Shown here piece after piece: positions 9,690 to 30,618 of a DNA stretch of 64,000 bases. The notes beneath the pieces were generated by a model, which did no database searches, was not told the origin of the DNA, and saw nothing but the letters and a program-made list of their open reading frames with translations. Each line of letters opens with the position of its first letter. Position 1 is the stretch's first letter. Both the position numbers and the translations under genes were made by a program. Origin of the DNA: Colwellia sp. 20A7. GTDB lineage: Bacteria; Pseudomonadota; Gammaproteobacteria; Enterobacterales; Alteromonadaceae. The stretch lies in contig NZ_CP047130.1 in assembly GCF_009832865.1 (NCBI RefSeq), positions 1,612,001 to 1,676,000 on the forward strand. Direction: 5' to 3'.

Positions 9690-9768
9690 TTTTACCTTAT
9701 CTTGACATATGTCGTCTTTTTATTTTCTTCATTGTATATTTTTAGCGTTACCACTCTTACAATTATTA

Positions 9769-9780
9769 TACACTAGTATA
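9769..9780 (-). promoter_or_regulatory. Palindromic operator upstream of the SnoaL-like gene
   Basis: TACACTAGTATA is a slightly degenerate copy of the palindrome found in other promoters of the cluster. Read on the minus strand, ACTAGTG runs directly into a perfect TATAAT at 9763-9768 (TATACTAGTGTATAAT overall). No good -35 was found. Confidence 0.55.
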
Positions 9781-9871
9781 GTTGTTGGTTTTCTTGTTTG
9801 TGCGTATTCTGGATGTAATAGTGCATTTATACTCATCGTTTACGTGAGAAACACATCATAATTATAAAGGC

Positions 9872-9900
9872 TTGACACTTCAAGTGCACTAGTGCATATT
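9872..9900 (+). promoter_or_regulatory. Sigma-70 promoter with palindromic operator in the spacer
   Basis: A consensus -35 TTGACA (9872-9877) is separated by 17 bp from CATATT (9895-9900). The perfect palindrome TGCACTAGTGCA (9885-9896) fills the spacer and enters the -10. A bound repressor would block polymerase directly. It lies about 115 bp upstream of the TTG start of the dioxygenase gene. Confidence 0.75.
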
Positions 9901-10014
9901 TGGTGTGTTCGCTAATGATATTTTTTTATCGGTAAAATTTAATCATGGAGCACCTCGGTGTTCAATAATGTTAGCTCAGATGTAAGACATATATTAATAG
10001 ATTAGGAGAATAAC

Positions 10015-11124
10015 TTGAAAAATTCCTGGATTCAAAAGTCAAGCGGAACTTTCGTGCGTCAAGCACGTGTAGGTGTTCGTGAAATGAATGAAGAACATAT
10101 TAGTCGTGAGGCTTTTTTTGGTCCGGCTAGCATGATTTACCATGAGCGACCAGCCGTTGCACCAAAGCGTGTTGAGGGCTCTCTTACATTGGGTCTCGCT
10201 GAACTTAAAAATTTTGAACAGTCTGATGAAAATAACACGGCAGGCCTTCCTACAGTCATGTTGTCAAATAGTGATGTGAGTATTTCGTTAAGCCGTCGCT
10301 CTACTGACATGCCGTTTTTGTTGCGTAATGTAGACGCAGATACCTTAATTTATATTCAGCACGGCAGTGGTATTCTTGCTACGGAGTTTGGTCCGCTAAA
10401 TTATAATCAAGGCGACTATCTATATATTCCTAAAAGCATTAGTTACCGTCAACTCCCATCGACAGATACACTCGCAATGGTAGTAGAATCTATTGCGCCT
10501 ATAAACATCGCTGAACATGCGATGTTGGGTCGTCATACGCCGTTTGATTCTGGTGTGTTAGATATTCCTGAAGCCACTCCATACAACTGGCCTGAGCAAG
10601 ATGAGTGGGAGTTAAAGCTAAAGCACGGTAACGAAATTACGTCTTGGTTTTATGAAGACCTTCCATTTGATCTTATTGGCTGGAAAGGCGATCTATTCCC
10701 GTTCCGTTTGAACGAAAATGACATCCGTAACATCAATTCAGACAAAATGCATATAGCCCCTTCATCATGGTGTATCTTTGAATCGGCTAGCTTTTTATGT
10801 GTCGCATTTCGTCCTATGCCAGGTGTTCAAGACGTCGAAGCTGAAGAATTACCTAGTCGACACCGCAATGTAGACACAGAAGAAGTCTTGCTGATTCGAA
10901 ATCTTTTTGCGGGCATTGAAGCTAATGCTTTTTGGCACTTGCCGCAAGGTGTTACACATGGCCCTCTTGCTCAAGATAGAGCAATGTTTGAAGGGTTTAG
11001 AAAGCAAGTAGAGGCAGCTGGTGCACCTCTATCACGTGATTTTGAAGCAGTAAGTATCGACCCATTCAAACGGCTGACCCCGTCTAAGGCATTTTTAGAT
11101 ATGCTTGCTAAGGGTGCGAAATAA
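10015..11124 (+). CDS. Homogentisate 1,2-dioxygenase-like ring-cleavage dioxygenase
   Basis: A 369-residue bicupin resembling homogentisate 1,2-dioxygenase, a non-haem Fe(II) enzyme that opens p-hydroquinone-type rings between the acyl-bearing carbon and the adjacent hydroxyl carbon. The three HGD iron ligands are all present: H283 and E289 in HRNVDTE, and H315 in VTHGPL. The cupin turn GDYLYIPKSISYR is at about 133-145. At 369 residues it is shorter than typical HGD (about 430-445), so the substrate is probably not homogentisate itself. Translation starts at TTG (10015) with AGGAG 6 nt upstream. It leads a same-strand run of catabolic genes and has a repressor-type promoter. Confidence 0.75.
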   Translation: MKNSWIQKSSGTFVRQARVGVREMNEEHISREAFFGPASMIYHERPAVAPKRVEGSLTLGLAELKNFEQSDENNTAGLPTVMLSNSDVSISLSRRSTDMPFLLRNVDADTLIYIQHGSGILATEFGPLNYNQGDYLYIPKSISYRQLPSTDTLAMVVESIAPINIAEHAMLGRHTPFDSGVLDIPEATPYNWPEQDEWELKLKHGNEITSWFYEDLPFDLIGWKGDLFPFRLNENDIRNINSDKMHIAPSSWCIFESASFLCVAFRPMPGVQDVEAEELPSRHRNVDTEEVLLIRNLFAGIEANAFWHLPQGVTHGPLAQDRAMFEGFRKQVEAAGAPLSRDFEAVSIDPFKRLTPSKAFLDMLAKGAK

Positions 11125-11158
11125 TACTACCCAATTTTAAAATACTATGAGGTATACA

Positions 11159-12040
11159 ATGTCACAAAGAAAATTAGAACAAGCACGATCGTTTATGTTT
11201 GTGCCAGGCAATAAGCAACGTTTTTTGGATAAAACTGAAAGCTTACCGTTAGACGTAGCATTTTTTGACTTAGAAGACGGTGTTTTGCCGGAAGAAAAGC
11301 CAAAAGCACGAGAAATGGTTGCCGCTACACTTGATAAATCTTGGGCTGGGCCACGTCGGTTCGTTCGACTGAATGCACAAACGACCCCTTGGTTTGAAGA
11401 TGACCTTAAAGCCGTGATACGCCCTGGTATAGAAGGTGTCTGCATGACTAAGGTTAATAGTGTTGATGAACTTCTTGCGGGTATAGACTCTATCGGAAAA
11501 CGCGAAAAAGAAGCCGGTATGGCACCTGGGACTGTACGCGTAGTTGCTGCAATTGAAAGTCCTCGTAGTTTATTAGTCGCTCATAATATAGCTGCCGCAC
11601 ATCCTCGTGTTTGCGGTCTTATTTTTGGTGGCGAAGACTACGCACTTGAGGTTGGTCTTGGAGCTAACCGGATTGCAGAAGCAGCAGAAATGCTTCATCC
11701 ACGAAATGTGATTGTCGTCGCAGCAGCAGCAGCGGGTGTTCTGTCAATTGATGGTGTTTTTCCAGACTTAAGTAATGATGAAGGGTGCCTAAAAGATATT
11801 TGGCAAGGACGTCGTCTTGGTTTTACGTCGAAGTCTACGTTTAACCCTGCTCAGGTTAACATGATCAATGAAATATTTTCCCCTCGACCTGAAGATATTG
11901 ACTATGCAAAACGTTTAGTCGCTGCCTTTGAAGAAGGTAAAGCGAAAGGCGAAGCGTCAATAGCATTTGGCGGACAATTAGTAGATTTACCTATTTTAAT
12001 GCGTGCACAGCGCATTCTTGAAGAAGCTGGAGAGAGTTAA
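11159..12040 (+). CDS. HpcH/HpaI aldolase / CitE-type CoA-ester lyase
   Basis: A TIM-barrel lyase of the citrate lyase beta-subunit-like family, 293 residues from 11159. Visible are RSFMFVPGN, the acidic LEDGV, the metal-binding AAIESPRSL and GGEDYALEVG. Members cleave citramalyl-CoA, malyl-CoA or methylmalyl-CoA into acetyl- or propionyl-CoA plus pyruvate or glyoxylate. ATG 11159 is chosen over 11147 because TGAGGT lies just upstream of it. It is followed by a MaoC hydratase and a CaiB CoA-transferase, the same three families as the itaconate-degradation set (ccl, ich, ict), so citramalyl-CoA lyase activity is the leading hypothesis. Confidence 0.8.
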   Translation: MSQRKLEQARSFMFVPGNKQRFLDKTESLPLDVAFFDLEDGVLPEEKPKAREMVAATLDKSWAGPRRFVRLNAQTTPWFEDDLKAVIRPGIEGVCMTKVNSVDELLAGIDSIGKREKEAGMAPGTVRVVAAIESPRSLLVAHNIAAAHPRVCGLIFGGEDYALEVGLGANRIAEAAEMLHPRNVIVVAAAAAGVLSIDGVFPDLSNDEGCLKDIWQGRRLGFTSKSTFNPAQVNMINEIFSPRPEDIDYAKRLVAAFEEGKAKGEASIAFGGQLVDLPILMRAQRILEEAGES

Positions 12041-12042
12041 TT

Positions 12043-12543
12043 ATGAGTCAAATAAAAGAAGGTTGGGTTGGACGTTATTTTGAAGATTTCGTGCTAGGTG
12101 ATATTTACCGTAGTCGTTTGGGTCGTACCATCACACTGACTGACAATATTCAGTTCACGATGATCACCAACAACACGAATCAACTGCATTTCAATGAGCA
12201 CTATGCCGAACAAACTGAATTTGGTAAGCCGCTAGTAAACAGCGCGTTGACATTATCTGTGGTTGCTGGCTTAGCAGTTATCGATGTAAGCGAGCACGGC
12301 TTTGCACTGGGCTGGGATTATATTAAATTGCCTAACCCTGTTTTTCCTGGTGATACTATTTATGCTGAAACTGAAGTGCTTGAAGTACGTGAAAGTAAAT
12401 CTCGCCCTAATCAAGGTGTAGTAAAAGTTTGTACTCGCGGCGTCAATCAACATGGAAAAATAGTGATTGATTATGCTCGCTCAGTCATGATTTGGAAGAA
12501 AGGTGCTGCGCCAGCAACGTCTATTTTTCCTGAAATAGTCTAA
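12043..12543 (+). CDS. MaoC-family hydratase, itaconyl/mesaconyl-CoA-hydratase-like
   Basis: A 166-residue hotdog hydratase. The hydratase-2 signature region reads TNNTNQLHFNEHYA (about 44-57). The usual catalytic Asp of D-x-N-P-L-H is Asn and the Pro is Gln, while the His remains. The following GKPLVNSALTL and LGWDYIKLPNPVFPGDTIYAETEV resemble itaconyl-CoA or mesaconyl-CoA hydratases rather than PhaJ-type enoyl hydratases (recognition from memory). It starts 2 bp after the lyase stop, and its stop overlaps the CoA-transferase start, so all three are probably co-translated. Addition of water to mesaconyl-CoA to give citramalyl-CoA is inferred. Confidence 0.75.
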   Translation: MSQIKEGWVGRYFEDFVLGDIYRSRLGRTITLTDNIQFTMITNNTNQLHFNEHYAEQTEFGKPLVNSALTLSVVAGLAVIDVSEHGFALGWDYIKLPNPVFPGDTIYAETEVLEVRESKSRPNQGVVKVCTRGVNQHGKIVIDYARSVMIWKKGAAPATSIFPEIV

Positions 12544-13700
12544 TGAACGCTGCTCAAGATAAACCTAGCCGAAAAACGCTAGGTCAGCCGCTTAAAGGTG
12601 TCACGGTGGTTGCTCTTGAGCAAGCCGTTTCGATGCCTTACTGCACATTTGTTTTAGCAGAAATGGGCGCTGAAGTCATTAAAATCGAACGGGTTGGCAG
12701 TGGCGATGTGGTCAGAGGCTGGGATTCAGCTGTACATGGCTTGTCGACCGGTTTTGTTTGGGTGAATGCAGGTAAAAAAAGTGTCGAACTTGATCTTAAA
12801 AATGAGGAGGGGCGTAAAGTTCTTCGTCAATTGATTAGCGATGCAGATATTTTTGTTGAGAATTTAGGTCCCGGTGCAGCGGCCCGTTTAGGGGTTGGCC
12901 CAGATGACTTTACTGATCAGCCCGGGCTAATTTATGCCAGCTTGTCCGGTTACGGTCAAGATGGCCCTTATCGTGACGTTAAAGCCTACGATTTAACGAT
13001 GCAGGGTGAAACGGGAATATTGCTGAGCAATGGTTACCCCGACCAACCAGCAAAAGTAGGTTTACCTATAACAGATCTGATTGCAGGATCTAATGCAATC
13101 ACTGGGATTATGATGTCACTGTATCAGCGGCAAACGACGGGCAAAGGCGCCTACCTTGATATCTCAATGTTCGACTCTGCGCTGACGTGGCTGGGTTATT
13201 TCCCTCACCATGCATGGCACAGCGGATCTGAGCCACCTTTATCGGGTATGAAACACCAGTATATTGTTCCTTATGGCCCTTATTTGGCTTCTGATGATCG
13301 TTATGTCTCTTTAGTTGTTGCTGATGATAAGAGTTGGAAACGCCTGTGTGAAGATGTGATTGATAAACCAGAATGGCTCACAGACCCTGTCATGATGAGC
13401 ATTGCTTCTCGACGAGAAAATCGTACTGTTGCAGAAGCAGCAGTTGAGAAAGTAATGGCTTCTCAACCTAGCGATGTGTGGAAAGCGAAGCTTGATAAAG
13501 TTGGCATTCCTTACGGTGATGTTAATACCATGGCTGATGTCATAAAGCATCCACAAGCATTGGCCCGCAATATGTTCGTTGAAACAAGCTCAGAGCATGG
13601 AAAATTACCACTTGTGCGTTTTCCATTAGCGCCGGCGGATAAAGAACGTCATTTACCTAGCTTGGGCGAGCATACAGATTCGGTTCTTAAAAAGACCTAA
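12543..13700 (+). CDS. CaiB/BaiF family (class III) CoA-transferase
   Basis: A 385-residue class III CoA-transferase with the N-terminal GVTVVALEQAVSMPYCTFVLAEMGAEVIKIE and the active-site region KAYDLTMQGETG, where D150 is the probable aspartyl nucleophile. The C-terminal GIPYGDVNTMADVIKHPQ is also typical. These enzymes pass CoA from a donor such as succinyl-CoA to a free carboxylate. Its ATG overlaps the hydratase stop (TAATG). With the lyase and hydratase it would complete activation, hydration and cleavage of a C5 dicarboxylate. The substrate is inferred from context. Confidence 0.85.
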   Translation: MNAAQDKPSRKTLGQPLKGVTVVALEQAVSMPYCTFVLAEMGAEVIKIERVGSGDVVRGWDSAVHGLSTGFVWVNAGKKSVELDLKNEEGRKVLRQLISDADIFVENLGPGAAARLGVGPDDFTDQPGLIYASLSGYGQDGPYRDVKAYDLTMQGETGILLSNGYPDQPAKVGLPITDLIAGSNAITGIMMSLYQRQTTGKGAYLDISMFDSALTWLGYFPHHAWHSGSEPPLSGMKHQYIVPYGPYLASDDRYVSLVVADDKSWKRLCEDVIDKPEWLTDPVMMSIASRRENRTVAEAAVEKVMASQPSDVWKAKLDKVGIPYGDVNTMADVIKHPQALARNMFVETSSEHGKLPLVRFPLAPADKERHLPSLGEHTDSVLKKT

Positions 13701-13720
13701 TTACCTTGCTAGCAAATAAA

Positions 13721-13756
13721 AGATCAAATTAACTAATATATTAGTTAATTTGATCT
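13721..13756. terminator. 36-bp perfect AT-rich palindrome after the CoA-transferase
   Basis: AGATCAAATTAACTAATA (13721-13738) is followed with no spacer by its exact reverse complement (13739-13756). It lies 21 bp after the CoA-transferase stop and 38 bp before the next ATG. It could act as an intra-operon attenuator or an operator. It is not followed by a U-run, so the terminator label is tentative. Confidence 0.5.
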
Positions 13757-13793
13757 AACAAATACTTAATACCTCAAATGAGAGAGAGTAAAA

Positions 13794-14642
13794 ATGAGAA
13801 CTGATTTTCAAGCCGGAGCCGCACACGGCTACGAATATGCGACAACAGGTGACGCGCCTTATAGCTTGTTGATTGTCCATGGAATTGGTGGTCACGGTGG
13901 CACCTATGATGTTTTTTGTGAGCCACTAGCTAAGCGTGGTGTCAATATTGTTTCTTTAGATCTTCCAGGACATGGTTTAGCACGTTGTCGGGATGGCGAA
14001 AAAGGTAACTGGCGTTTTGTTGAATGGTTAGAAGATATTGATGTTGCAGCTAAAGCAATGCAGAAAAAATTTGGCAAACCGGTATATGTATTGGGCTCAA
14101 GTCAGGGAAGTGCTGCAGCGTTTCACTCCTTAGCGTTTTCAGAGGCGGTTAGTGGCGCAGTCTGTATGAATATTATTCTTACCGAGGTAGAGCCTAAAGA
14201 GACCGATCCTGCTTATCCACATTATATAAAACTGAGATCTGATGCGATTAAACAATATGCAGCTCAAGTGGGCGATAGTGAAAGAATAGATTTATCAGAA
14301 GTTGTGGATTGGAACAAAAACTACGCGTCGGATGATCCTAATATTTTAGCCAAGAAACAAGAAGATGAATTACGTGCATGGACTTACGGTATGGCCAGCA
14401 TGGTGAGCTATTGGAATTACGAGCCGCCTATTTCCGCAGCTGAAAATACTAAGCCTGTTCACTTAGCTTATGGTGAAGCAGACAAGTTTACCTCTGCTAA
14501 CTATATGAAAGCTTGTTATAACGCAATAGGGGGTCCTAAAGCGTTGGTGTCTATTAAAGACGGCTCGCATCAATTAATGCTTTATCATACAGCTGAATAT
14601 ATAGATATTGTTGATAAATGGATCAGAGAACAGGTGAAATAA
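13794..14642 (+). CDS. Alpha/beta hydrolase
   Basis: A 282-residue serine hydrolase. The oxyanion strand LLIVHGIGGHGG, the LDLPGHGLA turn and the nucleophile elbow GSSQGS (S103) are clear. A late acidic residue in YGEADKF and a His in DGSHQLM complete the triad. In aromatic pathways such enzymes hydrolyse ring-fission C-C bonds, esters or CoA thioesters, and the sequence does not settle which. The start has GAGAGAG upstream. It is 4 bp before the FAH-type gene and probably in the same mRNA. Confidence 0.85.
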   Translation: MRTDFQAGAAHGYEYATTGDAPYSLLIVHGIGGHGGTYDVFCEPLAKRGVNIVSLDLPGHGLARCRDGEKGNWRFVEWLEDIDVAAKAMQKKFGKPVYVLGSSQGSAAAFHSLAFSEAVSGAVCMNIILTEVEPKETDPAYPHYIKLRSDAIKQYAAQVGDSERIDLSEVVDWNKNYASDDPNILAKKQEDELRAWTYGMASMVSYWNYEPPISAAENTKPVHLAYGEADKFTSANYMKACYNAIGGPKALVSIKDGSHQLMLYHTAEYIDIVDKWIREQVK

Positions 14643-14646
14643 GTAT

Positions 14647-15495
14647 ATGAAATTTGTAAGAGTAGGCAAGCTAGGCGCTGAAAAAGCTGGTGTGATTGAT
14701 ACAAACGGAAAAATTCGTGATATTAGTTCACTAGTAGAAGATGTTGATGGTGATATATTCTCTGGCACGACTCTAGCACAGTTGAAAAATTGTGATCTAA
14801 GCCAACTTCCCGTGTTAACTGAAGAACGCTATGGCGCTTGTATAACAAATGTTGGCAAGATTATCTGTGTAGGTCTTAACTACTATGATCACGCGAAAGA
14901 ATCGGGTATGGAAGCGCCAGCAGAACCCGTTTTGTTTATGAAAGCGACAAGTTCACTTAGCGGCGCGAATGATAATGTCGTTATGCCCATTGGTGGTGAA
15001 AAGCTCGATTATGAAATTGAGTTAGGTGTTGTCATTGGCAAAGCAGCTAAAAACGTTTCGGTTGATAACGCTGCAGAGCATATCGGTGGCTTTTGCATAT
15101 TTAATGATGTATCTGAACGCGCTTTTCAATTGGAAGGTACAGGTCAGTGGGTAAAAGGTAAAAGTTGCGATACTTTTGGTCCTTGTGGTCCTTGGTTAGT
15201 AACACCTGATGAAATTGACGATGTTGGCAGCTTGGACTTAGAGTTGTCAGTTAATGGTGATGTTCGCCAAAAAGCCAATACCAAAGATATGTTGTTTAAT
15301 GTGCCTGAAATTATAGCCTTTATTAGCCGGTTTATGACATTACTACCAGGAGATTTGATCGTAACGGGTACTCCTCAAGGAGTGGTACTTGGTATGGAAC
15401 CGAAGGTTTACATGAAACCAGGTGACCAGATGTCGTTAATGATTGAAGGACTTGGCACACAATCTCAAATGGTTGTGGGTAGTGAACACGCGTAG
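14647..15495 (+). CDS. Fumarylacetoacetate hydrolase (FAH) family protein
   Basis: A 282-residue FAH-family enzyme. The metal ligands E123 and E125 are in DYEIELG and D154 in FNDVSERA; H82 of NYYDHAKE is the catalytic-type His. The order VGLNY, PVLFMKA, WVKGKSCDTFGP and VTGTPQGV is canonical. The family hydrolyses or decarboxylates 1,3-dicarbonyl ring-cleavage products. Next to an HGD-like dioxygenase, C-C hydrolysis of the ring-fission product to a dicarboxylate plus a keto acid is the natural role. If the ring carries a methyl group, the dicarboxylate could be mesaconate (inference). Confidence 0.85.
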   Translation: MKFVRVGKLGAEKAGVIDTNGKIRDISSLVEDVDGDIFSGTTLAQLKNCDLSQLPVLTEERYGACITNVGKIICVGLNYYDHAKESGMEAPAEPVLFMKATSSLSGANDNVVMPIGGEKLDYEIELGVVIGKAAKNVSVDNAAEHIGGFCIFNDVSERAFQLEGTGQWVKGKSCDTFGPCGPWLVTPDEIDDVGSLDLELSVNGDVRQKANTKDMLFNVPEIIAFISRFMTLLPGDLIVTGTPQGVVLGMEPKVYMKPGDQMSLMIEGLGTQSQMVVGSEHA

Positions 15496-15521
15496 TTCCG
15501 ATATCAAAGGAGCCGTCAATA

Positions 15522-16301
15522 GTGAATGCGAAGATTACAATGAACGGTGAAGACTGGGCAACTGGAAAAGTTATTCTTATTACAGGTGGAGCCTCAGGCA
15601 TTGGATAGGCGGCAACGATTCGTTTTTCCATGGCCGGTGTAAAAGTCGCCATTGTCGATATCAACGAAACTGCGGGCAAAAATTTAGTGTCGAGGGTGGT
15701 CAATAGTGGCGGAGAAGCCATCTTCATCAAAACGGATGTGACGAAAAGTGATGATGTGGAAAATATGGTTGCACAAACCGTCAAGCAATTTGGTGCTTTA
15801 GATTTTGCGTTTAACAACGCAGGAATTGAAGGTAAGCTGGGTGTTCCTGCGGCGAATATAACAGAGGATGACTGGGGAAGAATTTTATCCATCAATCTCA
15901 CCGCAGTATGGTTATGCATGAAATATGAACTACAGCACATGGTTGAAAATGGTGGGGGCGTAATAGTCAACACAAGCTCAACCGCAGGCTTGGCTTCGGC
16001 GGTTAATTCTGGCGCCGCTTATTGTGCAAGTAAGCATGGCGTTATTGGCCTGACAAAAACAGCGGCTAAAGAATACCGAGCACAAAATATTCGTATAAAT
16101 GCTATTTGCCCCGGCGGCGTAAATACGCCATTGTTGCAGAGAACTGCTGGCGATGCAGATATATCTTCAATAATGAAAACTAACCCTGGGTTAATTTCTT
16201 CTCCAGAAGATGTCGTAGAGTCAGTTGTTTGGCTTTTTTCACAGAGTTCATCCATTGTTAATGGTCACGCTTTGTTACTTGATAATGGGATGTTGGCCTA
16301 A
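15522..16301 (+). pseudogene. SDR-family oxidoreductase interrupted by an amber codon
   Basis: The frame starts at GTG 15522 (AAAGGAG upstream) and reads VILITGGASGIG. It then hits TAG at 15606-15608, exactly after the cofactor-binding TGGxSGIG motif, and continues in the same frame AATIRFSMAGVKVAIVDI... to a normal end at 16301. Downstream it keeps NNAGIEG, the active-site YCASKHG and the C-terminal LLLDNGMLA. The single substitution makes this either a very young pseudogene, a sequencing error or a suppressed codon. A downstream ATG at 15630 would give a product lacking the Rossmann glycines, which should not bind NAD(P). Confidence 0.8.
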
Positions 16302-16346
16302 ATCGTCAACAGTGGATAACGGTTATAACTAAAAGAACGAGATTAT

Positions 16347-17027
16347 ATGAATAATGAACAGACGTCAGTATTGCGCATTGATATGGTGTCAGACATTGTC
16401 TGTCCGTGGTGTATTATTGGCTATAAAAAATTAGAAAAAACATTAGAAAACCTAAAAAGATCTCGACCTGAACTTTCGGTTGAAGTGAACTTTAAACCTT
16501 TCCAATTAATGCCTCAAATCCCGCCTGAAGGTAAGGATGTTAAAGAGCATATTATTGATAAATACGGTTCCTCAGAAGCTGCCCTCCAGGGTGCCGCTGC
16601 TTATCATGAACGTATTAAAGCTGTTGCTCGTGAGCATGGCGTGGCATTAAATGCAGGACCAGAATCACGGGTTTACAACACTTTTGAGGCGCATAAATTA
16701 TTACATGCCGCAGAAAGTCCTGAGCAACAACTGGCATTGAAACTGGCTTTGTTTAAGGCAAATTTCACTGACCTGAAAAACATATCGGATCGAGAAACCC
16801 TAGTGAGTATAGCAAGTGAGGCGGGTATGGAGCCTGATCAAGCCCGCCATATTTTGCAGGATGACGCTATCGCGAAGGAGCTCGCTCACGATATTTATAA
16901 ATACATAGAAATGGGCGTCAATTCAGTACCAACCTTTTTTATCAATGGACATCATAGTACCAATGGGGCTCAGGACGAAGTAGTACTACAACGCTTTATC
17001 GAAAATATCTTAGATGGTAGAGCATAA
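16347..17027 (+). CDS. DsbA/FrnE-family thioredoxin-fold protein
   Basis: A 226-residue cytoplasmic DsbA-superfamily protein (no signal peptide) with the redox motif CPWC at 19-22 and the cis-proline region NSVPTFFING near 195. FrnE-like proteins are disulfide isomerases. The wider superfamily includes glutathione-dependent 2-hydroxychromene-2-carboxylate isomerase, so cis-trans isomerisation of a maleyl-type ring-fission product is conceivable. The CPWC pair argues for a redox function. It closes the first catabolic run; the next gene has its own promoter. Confidence 0.8.
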   Translation: MNNEQTSVLRIDMVSDIVCPWCIIGYKKLEKTLENLKRSRPELSVEVNFKPFQLMPQIPPEGKDVKEHIIDKYGSSEAALQGAAAYHERIKAVAREHGVALNAGPESRVYNTFEAHKLLHAAESPEQQLALKLALFKANFTDLKNISDRETLVSIASEAGMEPDQARHILQDDAIAKELAHDIYKYIEMGVNSVPTFFINGHHSTNGAQDEVVLQRFIENILDGRA

Positions 17028-17081
17028 AGCTAAAGTGAAATGAGATATTTCATTTAATTGCATTAGTATATAATTAGTGTG

Positions 17082-17110
17082 TTGACACTTTAATTACACT
17101 AGTGCATTAT
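17082..17110 (+). promoter_or_regulatory. Sigma-70 promoter with palindromic operator in the spacer
   Basis: TTGACA (17082-17087), 17-bp spacing and CATTAT (17105-17110). The operator TACACTAGTGCA is at 17095-17106, placed relative to both hexamers exactly as at 9872-9900. A related half-degenerate site, TGCATTAGTATA, lies at 17059-17070. It drives the SDR at 17179. Confidence 0.75.
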
Positions 17111-17178: not shown

Positions 17179-18036
17179 ATGAAACGACTTGATAAAAAAG
17201 TAATTGTTATGACTGGCGGCGGTGGTTCTATTGCAACAGCGGCTGCAAAACGCTGTGCTGAAGAAGGAGCAACACTCGTTTTAACTGATATCCGAGAAGA
17301 TGCTTTAGAAGCCTCGGCTGCGGGTGCTCGTGCTGCAGGAGCTGAAGTATTAACGATGGTGTCTGATACTCGTTCGGAAGAGCAGTGTGAAGAAGTAATG
17401 GCGAAAACTGTTGAAAAGTTTGGTCGCATTGATACAGTTTGGGCGAATGCTGGAGAAGTTTGGGTTGCAGAAGCGCTTGATCAAGATAAAGACTTTTTTA
17501 CAAAATGTCTTGAACTAGAAGTAACAGGCCAGTGGTTACCCATTCGTGCAGCACTTCCAACGATGATTAAACAGCAAAGTGGCTCGGTATTGGTTAGCTC
17601 TTCAATGACCGCGAATGTTGGTATCAAACACATTGCCGCGTACAGCGCAGCCAAAGGCGCACTTCAGGCGCTTATGGTGACTTTAGCGGTAGAGCACGGT
17701 TGTAACAACATACGCTTCAATAGCTTAGCAATTGGCTCTGTCGAAGGGCGACATATTATAGCATCCAACGCGATGCGCCAGGGTATTTCATACGAGGAGG
17801 CTGAGAAATTAGTTAATACGACCAAAAAGGTCAGAGATATGATCTTTAGTCTAGGCCGTATGGGCGAGCCTGCCGATATTGCGCCTGTAGTTGCATTCTT
17901 CGCGTCGGATGATTCTAAGTGGGTTACGGGTACTAACTTTTTCCCTGATGGTGGGCTTACACACAATGGTATGGCCGGTCTTCATGGGCTTTCGCCGGAG
18001 CAGTCAGCAAGCTTTATGCAACATGTCGTAAAATAA
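17179..18036 (+). CDS. SDR-family NAD(P)-dependent oxidoreductase
   Basis: A 285-residue classical SDR. The glycine-rich motif is TGGGGSIA (about 12-19, a variant of TGxxxGIG), followed by NAG at 90-92 and the catalytic S142, Y155 and K159 (YSAAKGA). It interconverts an alcohol and a ketone, probably on a ring intermediate of the cluster. AGGAAA lies 8-13 nt upstream. It has its own regulated promoter and is followed by two hairpins, so it is likely monocistronic. A conserved-looking C-terminal extension (GMAGLHGLSPEQSASF) follows the usual G-G-x-T end. Confidence 0.88.
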   Translation: MKRLDKKVIVMTGGGGSIATAAAKRCAEEGATLVLTDIREDALEASAAGARAAGAEVLTMVSDTRSEEQCEEVMAKTVEKFGRIDTVWANAGEVWVAEALDQDKDFFTKCLELEVTGQWLPIRAALPTMIKQQSGSVLVSSSMTANVGIKHIAAYSAAKGALQALMVTLAVEHGCNNIRFNSLAIGSVEGRHIIASNAMRQGISYEEAEKLVNTTKKVRDMIFSLGRMGEPADIAPVVAFFASDDSKWVTGTNFFPDGGLTHNGMAGLHGLSPEQSASFMQHVVK

Positions 18037-18060
18037 TGAATGTTGCAAAATATTGAATGG

Positions 18061-18096
18061 CGAGTTAAGGAGGCAAGTGATTGGTTCCTTAACTCG
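18061..18096 (+). terminator. Hairpin terminator after the SDR
   Basis: CGAGTTAAGGA (18061-18071) pairs with TCCTTAACTCG (18086-18096) around a 14-nt loop, followed by GTTTATTA, 25 bp after the SDR stop. Confidence 0.65.
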
Positions 18097-18107
18097 GTTT
18101 ATTACCA

Positions 18108-18143
18108 ATATCACTAACTATGTAAACACGTAGTTAGTGATAT
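18108..18143 (+). terminator. Second hairpin after the SDR
   Basis: A 13-bp perfect stem, ATATCACTAACTA / TAGTTAGTGATAT, with a 10-nt loop. A TATTATTTTTGT tract follows within a few bases. It probably acts as a second terminator insulating the flavoprotein gene. Confidence 0.65.
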
Positions 18144-18236
18144 GGGTATTATTTTTGTATTTTACCTTGATAACTAACATTAGTTATATTCTTTATCCAC
18201 ATGCATATCTATGCTTTCCATTGTAACGAGGTGCAT

Positions 18237-19949: not shown

Positions 19950-20045
19950 AAGTTTAGCAGATAAATAGCTGATGGAAAGCCATCGATTACGACGTATTAA
20001 GCAACTTTTATTTTTTATGATACTTAACTGAAGGATCCACAATAT

Positions 20046-20075
20046 ATAACCATAACCATAACCATAACCATAACT
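20046..20075 (+). repeat. (ATAACC)n hexamer tandem repeat
   Basis: Four perfect ATAACC units are followed by one ATAACT, 37 bp before the MFS start. It is a slippage-prone microsatellite in the leader of a transporter gene. Confidence 0.9.
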
Positions 20076-20112
20076 ATAAGACGCTAGGTTGCCATAAAAT
20101 GAGTACTTTAAA

Positions 20113-23506: not shown

Positions 23507-25960
23507 TTAAAACCAGTTGTATTCAGCTGTTAGGAATATCTGGCGTGGTTTGTCAACATTAGAATAGTATGCGCCTATAGCTTGAGGTGTTGCACCCCCG
23601 TAGCTGACAGTTGTCTCATCAGTCAGGTTTTTCCCTATAAGTGATACTTTCCAATCGTCATCTTCACTTGTCAGGTTTACGCTAAAGTCAACCTTAGTGA
23701 AAGCATCCTGAACCATATAGGCATCATTTTGACTACCCCAGAAATAGTCATCGCTATAGATTAAGTCGCCTCTTAAGTCGAGTTTCATTCCGTTAGATAG
23801 GTCATATTTATAGGTCGCATAAAGGTTGCCGGCCCAATCAGGACTAAACCTAAGCTTATCCCCTTTCGCATTTCTAGTGCTAGTGACAGGATCACAGTTT
23901 GCTTCTTTTGATATACCACCTGAACAGCTCGCACCGGGGAAATCATCGAAGGTAGCGTCTAGATAGGCCAGAGCGCCGCCAATTTCAACACTATCTGTGA
24001 CCGCATAACGAATATCCGCTTCTAGTCCTTGTGTAGTCGCTTCTGCAGCATTTTTGAAGAAAAAAGAATTAGTATTGCTGTCAAGTGCAGAAACCTGAAG
24101 GTCGTCGAATGAGGTGTTATAAAGAGCTACATTTGCCAATAGAGTGCCTTCAAGGAAACTACCTTTGAGACCTATTTCATAGCCTGTAGCCCTCTCGGAA
24201 TCGAAACTAGTGATGTCAGGACTGTTGGCTGATGAATTAAAACCACCTGCTTTAGTCGCTTTAGTATATGAACCGTAGAGCATAATGTCCTGATTAACGT
24301 CCCATTGCACAGACACACTGGGATCTAAGCTACTATTGCTAATTTTGCTGCGAGGGAGATCTGCTGTTGTAAAGTACTCAACTCCGAATACGCTCCTACT
24401 GAAAGCGTTCAAATCGGGAAGGCCTGGGTATAAAACAGGATCAAAAATCACTAAATTTGAGCCTTGAGGACCGGGTTGAAAACTGTATTCTACTTCCTTA
24501 GTTTCATCGGTATAGCGAGCCCCAACATTGATACGAACATCATCGTTAACATTCCAAGTAACCTGTCCAAACGCAGAATATGATTCGGTATTTTCATCAA
24601 AATGACGCTCGTTGGCAGCATCAAAAAATTGATAAACAAAAGCTGTTTGGTAATCGTCTGGGATATTATCGAAATTACTAAATGGGAGATTGCCATTACT
24701 AAAGTTGATTGCGGACGTGGCTCCATCATATTTGATATTACGATCCATGTAAAAGGCGCCAACAATGTAAGTAAAAGCTCCAGTATCAGCGGAAACAAAA
24801 CGGATTTCTTGGGTCAATTGGTCAAATTCTTCGCCACCATCACCTTTCTCGTCTCGAAAAACCAACCAGTCTGTAGGGGCCATGGTAGTTACCATTGCTC
24901 TCGATTGTTCAAACGCACTATAGCTAGTAATACCCGTCAGTGTACCTTGTTCTATTTCATAGTCGATTTGACCAGTGAATGAAGCACTATCAACAGCTGT
25001 TTCAAGAGGTTTATTGTCAGCCTCAAATTTGTTGGTTTCTGGGTTGTAGGTAAAGTTAAAGCCGTTGGATACTACGCCATTATCGATTGTGTCGTAGTTA
25101 GGATCTTTACTTAAAAAGAAGGCGTCGATCGGTACGCCGGCGTAAGTTGCTCCAGGTTGGTTTTTCAAGCCGCTAAATGATGTTCCTCTTACTTTACGTT
25201 CACCTGTTTCAACTTTTCCGAACAGAGTTAGGTCGTCAGTAGGCTCCCAGACCAAACTCAAGCGAAAAATAGAGAACTCATCTTCGTTTTGGTCTTTTTC
25301 CCCATTCAGCATTACGCCGTCTTGTGAAAGTCTAGAGTTGGTGTCAAGCCAGCCACCCACTAAATTGTTCTGGACCACTACGCGAGCAAAAAGGTTATCT
25401 GAAATCCCCCCAGAGACCATTCCTTCAAGGTTATAGCCACCATTTTCAATTTCGTAACCGGTACGTACTCTCGCTTCAAAGTCGTCTGTAGGACGACGCG
25501 TGGTAATCACTATGGCGCCAGCTACACTATTTTTACCTTGTAAAACACCTTGCGGTCCTTTAAGAACTTCAACACGTTCCACATCAGTAAAGGGTGCATT
25601 AAATTGGAAGCCTCGGCTTAAGTAGGTACCATCGACGTACATGCCTACTGATTGTTCTGCTGCTGCATTATCAGTTCCGGTGCCAACGCCGCGCATGCTG
25701 ATTGAGCTTATGCTAGGCGAAGAGCCAAGGTACACATTGGGCAAGCGTTCAACAAGCCCTCCAAAATCGACAATACTTAGTTCGTCTAGCATATCCCCCG
25801 TGGCAACCTGCATCGAAACAGGTACGTCAGCCATTGTTTGGATACGTTTTTGTGATGTGACGGTGATCACTTCCAGCTCTGCTGCATATGCTGCCCCGCT
25901 GAGTGTTGTAAGTCCAATTGCAATGGCTATTGCTTTCTTTTTAAAGTTATTATGTTTCAT
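23507..25960 (-). CDS. TonB-dependent outer-membrane receptor 1
   Basis: An 817-residue TonB-dependent transporter. The signal peptide is MKHNNFKKKAIAIAIGLTTL with a cut after about AAYA, followed by the TonB-box region LEVITVTSQKR. The plug carries ERVEVLKGPQGVLQGKNSVAGAIVI, and the C-terminal barrel ends QIFLTAEYNWF with the terminal aromatic needed for outer-membrane assembly. It imports a scarce or bulky substrate using TonB energy. The receptor belongs to the large QKR-type family common in marine proteobacteria that use complex organics. It lies opposite the MFS genes. Two copies of the ACTAGTG palindrome lie upstream, one with ACTAGTG abutting a perfect TATAAT on this strand. Confidence 0.92.
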   Translation of the reverse strand: MKHNNFKKKAIAIAIGLTTLSGAAYAAELEVITVTSQKRIQTMADVPVSMQVATGDMLDELSIVDFGGLVERLPNVYLGSSPSISSISMRGVGTGTDNAAAEQSVGMYVDGTYLSRGFQFNAPFTDVERVEVLKGPQGVLQGKNSVAGAIVITTRRPTDDFEARVRTGYEIENGGYNLEGMVSGGISDNLFARVVVQNNLVGGWLDTNSRLSQDGVMLNGEKDQNEDEFSIFRLSLVWEPTDDLTLFGKVETGERKVRGTSFSGLKNQPGATYAGVPIDAFFLSKDPNYDTIDNGVVSNGFNFTYNPETNKFEADNKPLETAVDSASFTGQIDYEIEQGTLTGITSYSAFEQSRAMVTTMAPTDWLVFRDEKGDGGEEFDQLTQEIRFVSADTGAFTYIVGAFYMDRNIKYDGATSAINFSNGNLPFSNFDNIPDDYQTAFVYQFFDAANERHFDENTESYSAFGQVTWNVNDDVRINVGARYTDETKEVEYSFQPGPQGSNLVIFDPVLYPGLPDLNAFSRSVFGVEYFTTADLPRSKISNSSLDPSVSVQWDVNQDIMLYGSYTKATKAGGFNSSANSPDITSFDSERATGYEIGLKGSFLEGTLLANVALYNTSFDDLQVSALDSNTNSFFFKNAAEATTQGLEADIRYAVTDSVEIGGALAYLDATFDDFPGASCSGGISKEANCDPVTSTRNAKGDKLRFSPDWAGNLYATYKYDLSNGMKLDLRGDLIYSDDYFWGSQNDAYMVQDAFTKVDFSVNLTSEDDDWKVSLIGKNLTDETTVSYGGATPQAIGAYYSNVDKPRQIFLTAEYNWF

Positions 25961-26054
25961 GTTGTGAGCTCTTTTGATTATTTGATTGCTTCGCTACTAT
26001 TCAGAAATACTTCTACTTTTGACTTTTTTATTGTAATAGTGAAATAACTTGTCA

Positions 26055-26072
26055 TTATACACTAGTGTATAA
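26055..26072 (-). promoter_or_regulatory. 18-bp perfect palindromic operator, receptor-1 promoter
   Basis: TTATACACTAGTGTATAA is a perfect 18-bp palindrome. On the minus strand ACTAGTG is followed at once by TATAAT, the likely -10, about 95 bp upstream of the receptor start. The -35 is weak. Confidence 0.7.
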
Positions 26073-26090
26073 CATCATATTATTATAAAG

Positions 26091-26102
26091 TGCACTAGTG
26101 CA
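26091..26102 (-). promoter_or_regulatory. Second palindromic operator, receptor-1 promoter
   Basis: TGCACTAGTGCA is identical to the dioxygenase operator. It lies 33 bp centre-to-centre from the 18-bp palindrome, about three helical turns. Upstream on the minus strand TTGACA is spaced 17 bp from TAAAAA (about 26109-26137), so a second promoter may fire into this operator. Confidence 0.65.
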
Positions 26103-26523: not shown

Positions 26524-26567
26524 GTCTATACCCCAACAAAGCACTAGTGCTTTGTTGGGGTATAGAC
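26524..26567. repeat. 44-bp perfect palindrome with operator-like core
   Basis: The 22 bases 26524-26545 are exactly complementary to 26546-26567 with no spacer. The centre is GCACTAGTGC, the same core as the cluster's operators, extended outward by AACAAA/TTTGTT, CCCC/GGGG and GTCTATA/TATAGAC. It lies 75 bp beyond the 3' end of the CrtC-like gene, with no U-run on either side. It could be an operator, a terminator-like cruciform or a transposon-end fusion. Confidence 0.8.
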
Positions 26568-26642
26568 AGTACTGGGAATTGATTTAAGTTCTTTATAATG
26601 TGTACTCATGCTAGAGCTCTTGGTATCATTACACTGTCAAAA

Positions 26643-27758
26643 TTAATTATAGATATAAGCGTCTTTATTTTTACCGAAAAACATCTGCTCCCAAAGGCCT
26701 TCTTGTTTGAATTGTTGAGTCTCTCCGTCTTTTTCAATGGTAAGAATTACCTCACCTAAAGTTCTTGTGTAGGTTGGGTTCATACCAATAATTTTTGCTA
26801 TTGTTCTTTTAAACGGCGAGATGATTTCAAGTAGACTCGCTGAAACGATATCTCTATCTCGTATCATTTCTACTTTATATACAGTGCCGTCATTTGATTT
26901 TTGAATCCAAGTAATACTATTATCGTAAAACTTGCCGGTTACTGGATGTTGTATTGTATCTTTTCTAATAACGGTGGTTAGTTTCTGATTATCTTCTAGG
27001 ATCACCCCATTTTTTGCGATCATAATGACGGGAAGTCGCGTGTATCCAGTTTTCTTTTCTGTGATGATATCGGAGGCTATTATGTTGTATTCGCCTACTT
27101 TAGCGCGTCCCCAGTACCAATGGTTAATGACTTTATTCATTGGGATATTTCCCCAATTATGGTCGTGATAGCCTGTACCCTTTAGATCTTTGGCAACGCC
27201 ATCCCTTGTTAGGGTTGCAGTGATGTTTGATGAAGGTTGAGCCACAATCCAAGCAAAGAAGTCTTCTTGTTTATCACCGAAATACCAATGTCCTGTGTCT
27301 GGCCGCCACATGGGAAGTGCTGATTCCATAAAGGCAGAAAACTCTATTGTGCCGTCATTGAAGTAGAGCTCATAATTACCCTCTACATACTTTAGATAAC
27401 AGTCCCCAACTTTTACATCAGCCTTTTCTTTTGAGGAATTAATAACGGTTCCCTTAGGCTCAGATACGGTTTGTGTAATTTTAGTCCCATCAGGATAAGT
27501 TAAGGTGAGCTCTGCGGTTGGTCTGGCAGGACCTTTTAGATCAAAATGATCCTTGGTATAGAATACGACAACAATCGTTATACCATCGTTTAATTCCATA
27601 TCGGTATACCACCACTCATAAGTGCCAGACTTTCCATGTGTTCTAATACCGTCTTCCCATATTTGAATAGATTTTTCTTTAATTCCCAATTCTTCATATT
27701 TTGATAAAGAATCATTTAATAATGCTATTTCATTATTTTTAGGTGATTTTTTGAACAT
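26643..27758 (-). CDS. CrtC/AttH-like lipocalin-fold protein
   Basis: A 371-residue protein resembling the hydroxyneurosporene synthase (carotenoid 1,2-hydratase, CrtC)/AttH family. Diagnostic segments are GTYEWWYTDMEL (about 45-56) and GTGYHDHNWGN (about 194-204), where the His/Asp/His cluster is the conserved polar core of the second lipocalin-like barrel. No signal peptide is evident, so it is probably cytoplasmic. Family members hydrate isolated double bonds or bind terpenoid-like ligands. Here it sits between two TonB receptors, so a role on the imported compound is inferred. It shares orientation with both receptors. Confidence 0.7.
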   Translation of the reverse strand: MFKKSPKNNEIALLNDSLSKYEELGIKEKSIQIWEDGIRTHGKSGTYEWWYTDMELNDGITIVVVFYTKDHFDLKGPARPTAELTLTYPDGTKITQTVSEPKGTVINSSKEKADVKVGDCYLKYVEGNYELYFNDGTIEFSAFMESALPMWRPDTGHWYFGDKQEDFFAWIVAQPSSNITATLTRDGVAKDLKGTGYHDHNWGNIPMNKVINHWYWGRAKVGEYNIIASDIITEKKTGYTRLPVIMIAKNGVILEDNQKLTTVIRKDTIQHPVTGKFYDNSITWIQKSNDGTVYKVEMIRDRDIVSASLLEIISPFKRTIAKIIGMNPTYTRTLGEVILTIEKDGETQQFKQEGLWEQMFFGKNKDAYIYN

Positions 27759-27897: not shown

Positions 27898-27934
27898 TAG
27901 CGCGTTTGCCCAATTTTATTTGGCAAACGCGCTA
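27898..27934 (-). terminator. Hairpin terminator of TonB receptor 2
   Basis: A 13-bp GC-rich stem (TAGCGCGTTTGCC at 27898-27910 with its complement at 27922-27934) around 11 nt. It lies 39 bp past the receptor stop, and on the minus strand the stem runs into TCTTTTCTG. Confidence 0.75.
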
Positions 27935-27972
27935 GTGTTTATAAAAATTTATTTCTATCTCATTAGGTCTTC

Positions 27973-30384
27973 TTAAAAGAAATTGTACTGCGCATTAATA
28001 AAAATCTGTCTTGGTTTACTGCTATTCGCCCAGTACGCACCTGTTATCAATGGGGTTGCACCACCAAAGTTAGCCGTTATTTCATTCGTTAGATTTTTAC
28101 CAACAATAGATACAAGCCAGCTATCGTCTTCGCTTTTTATTTCTAACATTAGGTTTGCTTTTACAAATGACTCCTGAAGGCCATAGGCATCATTTTGAGA
28201 GGTAAAGAAATACTCGTCGCTGTAGGTTAGATCACCTCTTAGACCCATTTGTATTCCGTTGTCCAGACTCCAGCGGTAGTCGGCGTATAAGTTACCTGTG
28301 ACTTCAGGAGAGAAGCGTAGCGAGTCGCCTGCAGTGTTTCTTGTGAAGGTTGTAAGATCGCAGTCGGCCTCGATAGATTCTCCAGAAGAACAGCTTGCGC
28401 CAGGGTAGTCATCATAGACCGCTTCAAGATAAGCAAGAGCCCCACCTACTTCTAAGTTATCGGTGACTGCAAAACGTAAATCGGTTTCAATGCCTTCTGA
28501 AGTTGCTTTTGCTGCATTTTGGAATGTAAGGGCGCTTGTATTAGGATCCAATGTGCTCACTTGTAGGTCGTCAAACTTGGAATTGAAAATGGCTACATTG
28601 ATATTTATTCGACCATCCATTAAAGAAGACTTTAGACCTACCTCAAAACTATCTGATGTTTCAGAATCAAATATAGAACCGTCCAATTTAGTTGCTGTTG
28701 AATTAAAACCACCCGCTTTTGTCGCGGAAGTTAGTGATGTATAGAGCATGTTGTTGCTATCAATATCCCATTGAAGTGAAACGCTTGGATCGAAGTTGTT
28801 TTCATCGATTTTAGTTTGATCTATATCTTCAGTGGTGAATGGAACTATTCCAAAAACGTCAAGCATAGCCTGGTTAGCGGGAGGAATATCGACTATAAAT
28901 GTTGGCTGAATTGAATGCTTAAGTCTTTCTTTGGTTTCATTAGTATAACGTGCACCAATGTTTGCTCGTAGAGTTTCACTTATATTCCAAGTGATCTGGG
29001 CAAAACCGGAAAGGGAGGTTGTTTGCTCTTTATACGTTCTCACACTGGTGAAATCTGCAAACGCTGGAAAACCCAAAGAGGTCAGTCTAAAGTTCTGACG
29101 ATAGCCTTTCTGTTCAATAGTACGATCCATATAAAATAAACCTACTATATAGTCAATTGTCTCGTTACCAGGTGAAACAAGACGGATTTCTTGTGAGTAT
29201 TGATCAAGTTGATCACCACCTGCTCCTTTATCGCCTTCGAAAGTGAGCCATTCAATTGGAGCCATTGCTTGTGATATCAACTCTTCGCTTTCGAAAGTAG
29301 AGTAACCTGATATACCTGTCAGGGTGCCTATGTCTCCCAAATCCCAATCAAATTGAAGGGTTGCCGACTGCGCATCCACATTAATAAATTGTCCTTCGTT
29401 AGTTATATCAAGAGTATTTGAATCTTCGTCATATTCTACAGCATAGGCATTTGATGCTACGCCATCAGTAATATAACCAAAATTAGGGTCGATAGCCTCG
29501 AAAGTAGCGAGTGCTGTTTGTCCGTCAACCCCATCTTGTACGCCGAACAAACCAAAATGTGTACCTTTCGTTTTTCTTGTAGACGACTCTAGTTTCCCAT
29601 AAAGAGACAGGTCGTCAGTTGCTTCCCATACTACACCTAAACGCAGTGCTTGCACTTTGTTGGTGTTTTGGTTTTTCTTGCCTTCAAGCTGTGTAACGCC
29701 GTCTGAGGCTATGCGAGAGTTAGTGTCTATCCAGCCGTCTTCGAAATTATTCATCGCGGTTAAACGAGCGAAAATAGTGTCTGTTAAGGCTCCTTGGAAA
29801 GCGCCTTCTAAAGTGTAGCCTTCATTTTCAATGTCGTAGCCGGCGCGAAAATACCCTTCAGTGTCGTCTGTAGGACGGCGACTATTAATGACAACCGCAC
29901 CTGCGACAGAGTTTTTACCTGCAAGAACTCCTTGAGGCCCTTTGAGTACTTCAACACGCTCTATATCAAGGAAGGGAGCATTAAATTGATAGCCGCGGCT
30001 TACGTAAATGCCATCGACAAACATACCTACAGATTGTTCGGCTGACGTATTAGACCCTGTACCGAGCCCCCTGATTGTTATGTAGCTAGGACCTGAAGTG
30101 TTGGAAAAATTCACGTTGGTTAAATGGGTCGTTAGATCTTGTATTTCATTAATATTTAGACTTTCCATAGCATCTCCTCCAAATGCTTGTATAGAAAGAG
30201 GGGTTTCACTTAAGCTTTGTATGCGTTTTTGCGCTGTAACCATAATCACTTCAAGCGTAGGTTTCTTATTCTCTGTTGTTGCGTCTTCGGCTATTGCGGC
30301 ATTAGCATATATGGGCATAGCCAGAGCGGCACCCGATAGGAATGTTATCGCGCGGGCTATTTTGTTTTTGAGTATGTTGAACAT
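27973..30384 (-). CDS. TonB-dependent outer-membrane receptor 2
   Basis: An 803-residue TonB-dependent transporter and close paralogue of receptor 1. A signal peptide ends near ANAAIAEDA, and the TonB-box region is LEVIMVTAQKR. The plug motif ERVEVLKGPQGVLAGKNSVAGAVVI is shared, as are TSATKAGGFNS and a C-terminus IFINAQYNFF. Two receptors in one regulon may handle related forms of the same substrate (inference). The first codons are preceded by GAGGAATTAC. Divergent from the SDR at 30661; the shared intergenic region carries three operator-like sites. Confidence 0.92.
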   Translation of the reverse strand: MFNILKNKIARAITFLSGAALAMPIYANAAIAEDATTENKKPTLEVIMVTAQKRIQSLSETPLSIQAFGGDAMESLNINEIQDLTTHLTNVNFSNTSGPSYITIRGLGTGSNTSAEQSVGMFVDGIYVSRGYQFNAPFLDIERVEVLKGPQGVLAGKNSVAGAVVINSRRPTDDTEGYFRAGYDIENEGYTLEGAFQGALTDTIFARLTAMNNFEDGWIDTNSRIASDGVTQLEGKKNQNTNKVQALRLGVVWEATDDLSLYGKLESSTRKTKGTHFGLFGVQDGVDGQTALATFEAIDPNFGYITDGVASNAYAVEYDEDSNTLDITNEGQFINVDAQSATLQFDWDLGDIGTLTGISGYSTFESEELISQAMAPIEWLTFEGDKGAGGDQLDQYSQEIRLVSPGNETIDYIVGLFYMDRTIEQKGYRQNFRLTSLGFPAFADFTSVRTYKEQTTSLSGFAQITWNISETLRANIGARYTNETKERLKHSIQPTFIVDIPPANQAMLDVFGIVPFTTEDIDQTKIDENNFDPSVSLQWDIDSNNMLYTSLTSATKAGGFNSTATKLDGSIFDSETSDSFEVGLKSSLMDGRININVAIFNSKFDDLQVSTLDPNTSALTFQNAAKATSEGIETDLRFAVTDNLEVGGALAYLEAVYDDYPGASCSSGESIEADCDLTTFTRNTAGDSLRFSPEVTGNLYADYRWSLDNGIQMGLRGDLTYSDEYFFTSQNDAYGLQESFVKANLMLEIKSEDDSWLVSIVGKNLTNEITANFGGATPLITGAYWANSSKPRQIFINAQYNFF

Positions 30385-30481
30385 TGTAATTCCTCAAGTT
30401 TTTTCACTATATCGTGTGTTTTAGATGTAGTAATAGCGTATTAGCTATTCTATATTTATTTTTTATTATTATTGCTACTAA

Positions 30482-30493
30482 TGCACTGGTGCA
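30482..30493 (-). promoter_or_regulatory. Palindromic operator, receptor-2 side
   Basis: TGCACTGGTGCA differs by one base from TGCACTAGTGCA. About 100 bp upstream of receptor 2; on the minus strand CAGTG is followed by CATTAG. Confidence 0.55.
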
Positions 30494-30518
30494 CTGACAA
30501 ACAATATTACAGAGTAAT

Positions 30519-30530
30519 TACATTAGTGCA
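30519..30530. promoter_or_regulatory. Operator-like site in the divergent region
   Basis: TACATTAGTGCA matches the operator consensus with one mismatch, 37 bp from the neighbouring site. Confidence 0.45.
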
Positions 30531-30602
30531 AGTGTATTTTTTTGAACAGTTTACTTTGCGACCTGTTGTACTATTTAGTGATTTACGCCTATTAATAAAA
30601 TA

Positions 30603-30618
30603 TGCACTAGTGTATAAG
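30603..30618 (+). promoter_or_regulatory. Operator and -10 of the SDR promoter
   Basis: TGCACTAGTGTA (30603-30614), with ACTAGTG directly followed by TATAAG (30613-30618), the same arrangement as at 9885 and 17095. About 45 bp before the SDR start; the -35 is weak. Confidence 0.6.

Follow-up and report, generated by a model that had tools for sequence, protein, structure and literature searches.

The window analysed here is a stretch of 64,000 nucleotides from the marine bacterium Colwellia sp. 20A7. A gene at 8464..9117 (+ strand) encodes a TetR-family regulator of 217 amino acids, the proposed repressor, recognised by Pfam TetR_N, orthologue alignment and a fold model. It is followed by a SnoaL-like gene on the minus strand (9156..9689; Pfam SnoaL_4, 2.2e-16), the conserved start of which is probably 9641 according to a start comparison. 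A proposed operon (10015..17027, + strand), whose co-transcription we infer from gene spacing, encodes by Pfam and NCBIfam an HgmA/cupin-like dioxygenase, a CitE-like lyase, a MaoC hydratase and a CoA-transferase III, and then an alpha/beta hydrolase, an FAA hydrolase, an SDR and a DsbA-like protein. The HgmA/cupin assignment is weak (Pfam E 9.5e-6), and the three solved relatives are homogentisate dioxygenases. Genes for an SDR, a KSTD-like FAD dehydrogenase and an MFS transporter occupy 17179..21342 (+). The minus strand carries TonB-dependent receptor 1 (23507..25960), a CrtC/AsqO-like protein that is possibly a hydratase or cyclase (26643..27758; Pfam AsqO_C 9e-8, above cut-off; NCBIfam carotenoid 1,2-hydratase 1.6e-5, far below cut-off) and TonB-dependent receptor 2 (27973..30384). 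The SDR gene at 30661..31435 (+) has a frame that is interrupted after 59 codons and resumes in another frame, its homologue being intact in Paraglaciecola sp. 20A4, and the SDR ORF at 15630-16301 begins about 36 residues later than the homologue in that genome; both genes look broken. The catabolic cluster lies in a mobile and possibly decaying neighbourhood. IS66-type transposase genes were located in three nearly identical copies (about 99%), at 40503-42101, at 54940-56538 and, upstream of the window, at a distance of about 16.6-18.2 kb. A piece of a DDE_3 transposase lies at 7550. Pieces of TonB-receptor barrel devoid of a plug domain (50365-51126 and 51722-52240) possibly derive from one disrupted receptor gene.

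The regulator contains an N-terminal TetR_N helix-turn-helix (PF00440, 2.8e-11, 43.5 bits versus a cut-off of 24), and the AlphaFold model of its monomer has 11 helices in an all-helical TetR-like fold (mean pLDDT 81.3). Fold searches with this model returned 74 PDB matches (E 0.001 or better), of which the 50 listed were, as far as described, TetR-type regulators, with TM up to 0.69 on the target. The best NCBIfam match, over residues 10-102, was MftR (TIGR03968), at 47.6 bits versus an equivalog cut-off of 224.9. The regulator is an uncommon one: among 5.8 billion proteins searched, 22 matched, consisting of the protein itself, 19 homologues with 41-79% aligned identity and two partial ones. 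Alignment A1 combined 20 of the 22 matches, query included, with the Spongiibacter thalassae protein and excluded P0021 and P0022 (27% coverage). Across the 21 aligned sequences the recognition-helix region, SRR(T/S)FFN.F.GKADV, was nearly invariant, as expected if the operator is conserved.

A first-pass annotation of this DNA had listed eight copies of a 12-bp palindrome, and each was found again at its coordinates when the window was scanned. In a strict scan, allowing at most one mismatch to TRCACTAGTGYA, the eight sites span 20.8 kb of one catabolic cluster, and all eight lie between genes of a hand-made gene list, as had been claimed. The strict-scan site TACACTAGTATA (9769..9780, -) is a predicted operator facing the SnoaL-like gene; TGCACTAGTGCA (9885..9896, +) is one within the dioxygenase-operon promoter, and TACACTAGTGCA (17095..17106, +) one within the promoter at 17082..17110. 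Upstream of TonB receptor 1, the predicted operators TACACTAGTGTA at 26058 and a further TGCACTAGTGCA at 26091 form a pair 33 bp apart (26054..26102, -); upstream of TonB receptor 2, the predicted operators TGCACTGGTGCA at 30482 and TACATTAGTGCA at 30519 are paired 37 bp apart (30482..30530, -). The last site, TGCACTAGTGTA (30603..30618 including a -10-like hexamer, +), is a predicted operator for the SDR gene at 30661. These positions fit the target set proposed earlier, namely the dioxygenase operon, the SDRs, the SnoaL-like gene and both TonB receptors. Three weaker sites had been overlooked: a degenerate site with two mismatches, TGTAATAGTGCA (9814..9825); a weak copy at 17059, the second site by the promoter 17082..17110; and a weak operator-like site, TGCACTAAGGCA (8346..8357, +), upstream of tetR. 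A perfect palindrome of 44 bp between the CrtC/AsqO-like gene and TonB receptor 1 (26524-26567) includes another CACTAGTG. Its arm has no second copy in the genome, even with three mismatches allowed, and it was not counted as an operator.

Whether these palindromes could be chance or repeat-derived features of AT-rich intergenic DNA was judged from the statistics of the genome (4,580,615 bp), where the strict scan detected 26 sites, eight of which are those listed above; the five perfect copies of TRCACTAGTGYA are all among the eight. The 18 strict sites outside the cluster correspond to background, because the same pattern read backward matched 19 times genome-wide. With the rate taken from the rest of the genome, eight sites in 20.8 kb have a Poisson probability of about 5e-14, a value that is post hoc because the span is drawn around the sites themselves. 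Loose scans gave results closer to chance: three mismatches to TGCACTAGTGCA yielded 36 sites in the window against 27.6 expected, a number reached by 4 of 100 shuffles, and bare ACTAGT occurred 19 times against 14 expected, which 7 of 100 shuffles reached. Both were dropped as evidence, being little above chance. The genome scan at two mismatches proposed in the first-pass annotation was run and gave mostly background (166 forward matches versus 136 in the backward control); the signal needs the full 12-mer at one mismatch or less. At that stringency random scatter was not seen, the motif being directly observed to concentrate in the cluster.

The same was seen in other genomes. The comparison comprised the Colwellia genome, Paraglaciecola sp. 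20A4, S. thalassae and a genome designated G819. The share of genome-wide sites that fall in the cluster was 9 of 28 in Paraglaciecola, on a contig of only 26.9 kb, 8 of 12 in S. thalassae and 7 of 13 in G819. A matrix built from the 24 foreign sites alone placed seven Colwellia sites at ranks 1-7 in 88 kb, and site 9769 fifteenth. By the hand-made gene list, 30 of the 32 cluster sites of the four genomes overlap no gene, and the two exceptions, both in G819, lie within the 5' part of reading frames for which the longest start was taken. That list excludes ORFs with neither a homologue nor a Pfam match, among them an S. thalassae antisense ORF that would overlap two sites, and takes the SnoaL start of Paraglaciecola at a conserved methionine further downstream; with the upstream start, a third site would fall inside a gene. 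A gene was regarded as served when a site lay at most 400 bp upstream with no intervening gene, sites between divergent genes serving both. On this definition the dioxygenase and TonB2 are served in all four genomes, SnoaL and SDR3 in three, and SDR2 and TonB1 in two.

The position of the palindrome relative to promoter elements was then compared. The first-pass annotation had described -10-like hexamers abutting five sites, and all were present as described: CATATT at 9885 (+), CATTAT at 17095 (+), TATAAT at 26058 (-; 26054-26059, immediately 3' of ACTAGTG), TATAAG at 30603 (+; 30613-30618, into which the operator runs) and TATAAT at 9769 (-; 9765-9770, after the operator and towards the SnoaL-like gene). 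Likewise, two sites do lie inside TTGACA-N17 promoters. In the dioxygenase-operon promoter (TTGACA-N17-CATATT, 9872..9900, +) the -35 is at 9872-9877, the -10 at 9895-9900 and the operator, 9885-9896, at gap 7; in the other (TTGACA-N17-CATTAT, 17082..17110, +) the -35 is at 17082-17087, the -10 at 17105-17110 and the operator, 17095-17106, again at gap 7. At the remaining six sites, no more than three of six bases match TTGACA in the same register at spacers of 16-18 in the direction of the presumed target; the opposite strand of site 30519 offers ATTACA, a 4/6 match. An operator "locked to the -10" was thus the right place and an incomplete description, since what recurs is a whole TTGACA-N7-palindrome promoter with a 17-bp spacer, found at two of the eight Colwellia sites. 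Part of the -10 match is built by the palindrome, because its own terminal CA or TA supplies the first two -10 bases. The three Colwellia sites that abut a -10 and lack a -35 (26058-, 9769- and 30603+) end in TA and have the better hexamers (TATAAT, TATAAT and TATAAG), and the two TTGACA promoters have the weaker CATATT and CATTAT. These five cases suggest, as a pointer and not as proof, a trade-off between -35 and -10 quality around the operator.

Among the 64 orientations of the 32 sites, exact TTGACA occurred nine times at gap 7, no other gap between 0 and 59 having more than one occurrence; over 2,000 rounds of shuffled flanks the mean was 0.018 and the maximum 1. The nine promoters come from all four genomes and amount to about seven distinct ones, since Colwellia and Paraglaciecola share two orthologous pairs. 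In all of them the palindrome is observed to occupy positions -22 to -11, and T is found at -7 in 9/9 (P about 2e-4). For the two Colwellia promoters, transcription starts are predicted at about 9907 and 17117. The four -10 bases beyond the palindrome-supplied CA match the consensus modestly (21 of 36 positions, P about 0.002). At one mismatch or less the 25-bp composite matched 2, 3, 1 and 4 times in the four genomes, always within the cluster; two mismatches added one match outside the cluster in each of Colwellia and Paraglaciecola. In the 294 other sampled genomes of the window's order it did not match at all at one mismatch or less, where the backward control appears to hit 11. Of the 291 other genomes sampled from the Spongiibacter order, two had one match each, a frequency equalled by the backward control; these two are not the TetR-bearing ones. 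A chance origin would agree with the background level of the 18 sites outside the cluster and with the three-mismatch scan, in which the window barely exceeds its shuffles. Set against the concentration in four genomes, the single preferred TTGACA gap and the absence of the composite in relatives, it is hardly credible.

Since the palindrome lies inside the -35/-10 spacer, as MerR operators do, an activator of the MerR type, twisting an over-long spacer, was weighed as an alternative to a repressor. The spacer optimum for sigma-70 is 17 bp and MerR promoters have 19-20 bp. The spacer is 17 bp in all nine composites, which holds by selection, but among the 11 spacers from 14 to 24 the best mean -10 match (3.33 of 6) was also obtained at 17 bp. 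TTGACA was found once at the gap corresponding to an 18-bp spacer and never at those for 19-20 bp, and no MerR gene was present among the scanned cluster ORFs. Activation of this type is accordingly very improbable.

Evidence as to which protein reads the palindrome came from the distribution of the TetR. Orthologues of the 8464 TetR are 73% identical in Paraglaciecola sp. 20A4, 49% in S. thalassae and 47.5% in G819. A pattern-limited scan of 84,980 species genomes led to two TetR loci, those of Paraglaciecola sp. 20A4 and S. thalassae, and among 293 genomes of the Spongiibacter order the TetR was detected, by profile search, in S. thalassae and G819. The stretches flanking the TetR in the three genomes contain homologues of the dioxygenase, CitE, MaoC, CoA-transferase, hydrolase, FAA-hydrolase, SDR, KSTD-like, SnoaL and TonB genes. 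Their order and orientation vary, but the palindromes keep to the front of the same kinds of genes. Relatives of the dioxygenase with 30-33% identity at E 1e-40 were found in 6 of 368 genomes when 369 of the class were searched, the Colwellia genome itself being set aside. Pfam named no other transcription factor among the cluster ORFs scanned, which in the foreign clusters were those remaining after removal of ORFs with homologues in the window, small ORFs and antisense ORFs.

A different regulator could nevertheless bind the palindrome, one encoded elsewhere or by the LysR (34171) or GntR/FCD (42749) genes further along the window, with the TetR merely travelling along. In keeping with this, tetR itself is not clearly autoregulated in S. 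thalassae and G819, which have no site at two mismatches or less directly upstream of tetR, and in G819 the TetR and the dioxygenase stand at opposite ends of the cluster. A weak site does precede tetR in Paraglaciecola, as in Colwellia, out of register with 8346 in a MAFFT pairwise alignment; autoregulation of tetR through the weak site 8346 is possible. Against a different regulator, the TetR orthologue and the motif cluster are observed together in four of the four genomes examined. Of the 293 genomes sampled from the Spongiibacter order, the 291 besides S. thalassae and G819 have no TetR at E 1e-25 or better, and the same holds for 397 of 398 genomes of the phylum sample, the exception being the Colwellia genome. 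The sample of the window's order has, outside that genome, only weak TetR paralogues (best 1.5e-9) in the 294 genomes that lack the composite. Moreover, the ORFs of the three foreign stretches include no LysR or GntR homologue. A regulator other than the TetR is on these grounds unlikely. The earlier proposal of one local regulator, most likely the 8464 TetR, gains strong support from the four-genome comparison, with binding and repression as its predicted consequences.

Taken together, TRCACTAGTGYA is very probably the operator of the 8464 TetR, which would act as a local repressor that occludes RNA polymerase; its binding, repression and ligand response are what we infer. Without inducer, a TetR dimer would sit on the palindrome, at about -22 to -11 in the TTGACA promoters, and overlap the first two -10 bases as well as the distal part of the 17-bp spacer. 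Sigma-70 RNA polymerase would thereby be barred from binding or opening the promoter. Occlusion is the simplest reading, because a dimer placed there would lie over the spacer as well as the upstream edge of the -10. A pathway substrate or intermediate would probably serve as the inducer that frees the dimer, and induction would jointly switch on two TonB receptors for uptake, ring or cyclic-ketone processing and a branch for C5-dicarboxylate CoA esters. Some sites have a neighbour at a distance of 22-41 bp, mostly at the TonB-receptor genes, and such an arrangement may make repression tighter; as the spacings vary (22, 24, 24, 29, 33, 36, 37 and 41 bp), cooperativity is unsupported and helical phasing is not claimed. 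Outside the cluster, S. thalassae has a further perfect palindrome (L096:6334-6345), with TTGACC at gap 8, which lies 285 bp upstream of a TonB receptor gene followed by a sulfatase and a sulfatase-modifying-enzyme homologue. This receptor/sulfatase row is possibly an unlinked member of the regulon.

As to the compound degraded, the CrtC/AsqO-like gene lies between the two TonB receptors in Colwellia and Paraglaciecola, and the S. thalassae and G819 clusters have a CruF-type protein (Pfam Caroten_synth; L090:6056-6934 and L095:2139-3014), all CrtC-like and CruF-like proteins scoring under NCBIfam equivalog cut-offs. The presence of carotenoid-hydratase-like proteins hints, as a guess, at a cyclic substrate bearing an isoprenoid. 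A fuller reading, speculative and rather unlikely, would be an undescribed pathway for a methylated cyclic or aromatic compound with an isoprenoid tail, meroterpenoid- or quinol-like, in which CrtC-like and CruF-like 1,2-hydratases of different families substitute for each other between genomes, ring cleavage feeds the citramalyl-CoA branch and the TetR senses a pathway intermediate. In it, promoter strength may trade -35 against -10 around one operator, as TTGACA with CATATT or CATTAT, or TATAAT or TATAAG with no -35.

The system resembles several that have been described. KstR and KstR2 govern ring-degrading gene clusters of the actinobacterial steroid pathway through a different operator sequence. 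As here, a single TetR protein coordinates a catabolic gene set, and KstR was among the fold matches listed, but identity to the 8464 TetR in structural alignments is 16-18%. MftR, the TetR of the mycofactocin system, is the best NCBIfam match and also a structural one (8x0a), whereas the 8464 TetR scores far below its cut-off. SDRs of the cluster also match models of mycofactocin-coupled SDRs, below cut-off. Genes for a CoA-transferase, a hydratase and a CitE-like lyase in a row (here 11147-13700) recall the three-step itaconate/citramalyl-CoA module (PMC12290011); here, by contrast, a ring-cleavage-type dioxygenase and an FAA hydrolase are added, and scores stay below equivalog cut-offs. SCO4099 of Streptomyces is likewise of the TetR family and has a putative operator terminating in CACTAGTG (PMC3511530, Table 2); according to that table the operator is longer, and the likeness is one of letters only. 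No mention of the 12-mer palindrome was found in the literature searched by text, nor anything on this operator in the titles and abstract beginnings of the literature searched. Very probably, these genes form a local regulon, conserved between genomes, whose regulator belongs to an uncharacterised TetR subfamily; the operator is newly predicted and the kind of control a familiar one. The subfamily thereby gains a concrete predicted operator and a target list, and the motif provides a handle for locating remaining pathway genes, perhaps among them the unlinked TonB receptor/sulfatase row of S. thalassae. Most characterised members of the TetR family are repressors, many of them released by a ligand, in the account of PMC3511530. 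With TetR/tetO and local TetR repressors, as that source portrays them, the Colwellia system shares a dimeric protein encoded near its targets and palindromic operators in promoters. It differs in that tetO itself consists of two 15-bp palindromes between divergent genes (PMC3511530), whereas here about six promoters over 21 kb would be controlled through a 12-bp centre-symmetric predicted operator, and two of four genomes have no clear operator at the regulator's own gene. The TTGACA-N7-operator arrangement would offer a clean natural case of an operator accommodated within a promoter with no lengthening of the spacer.
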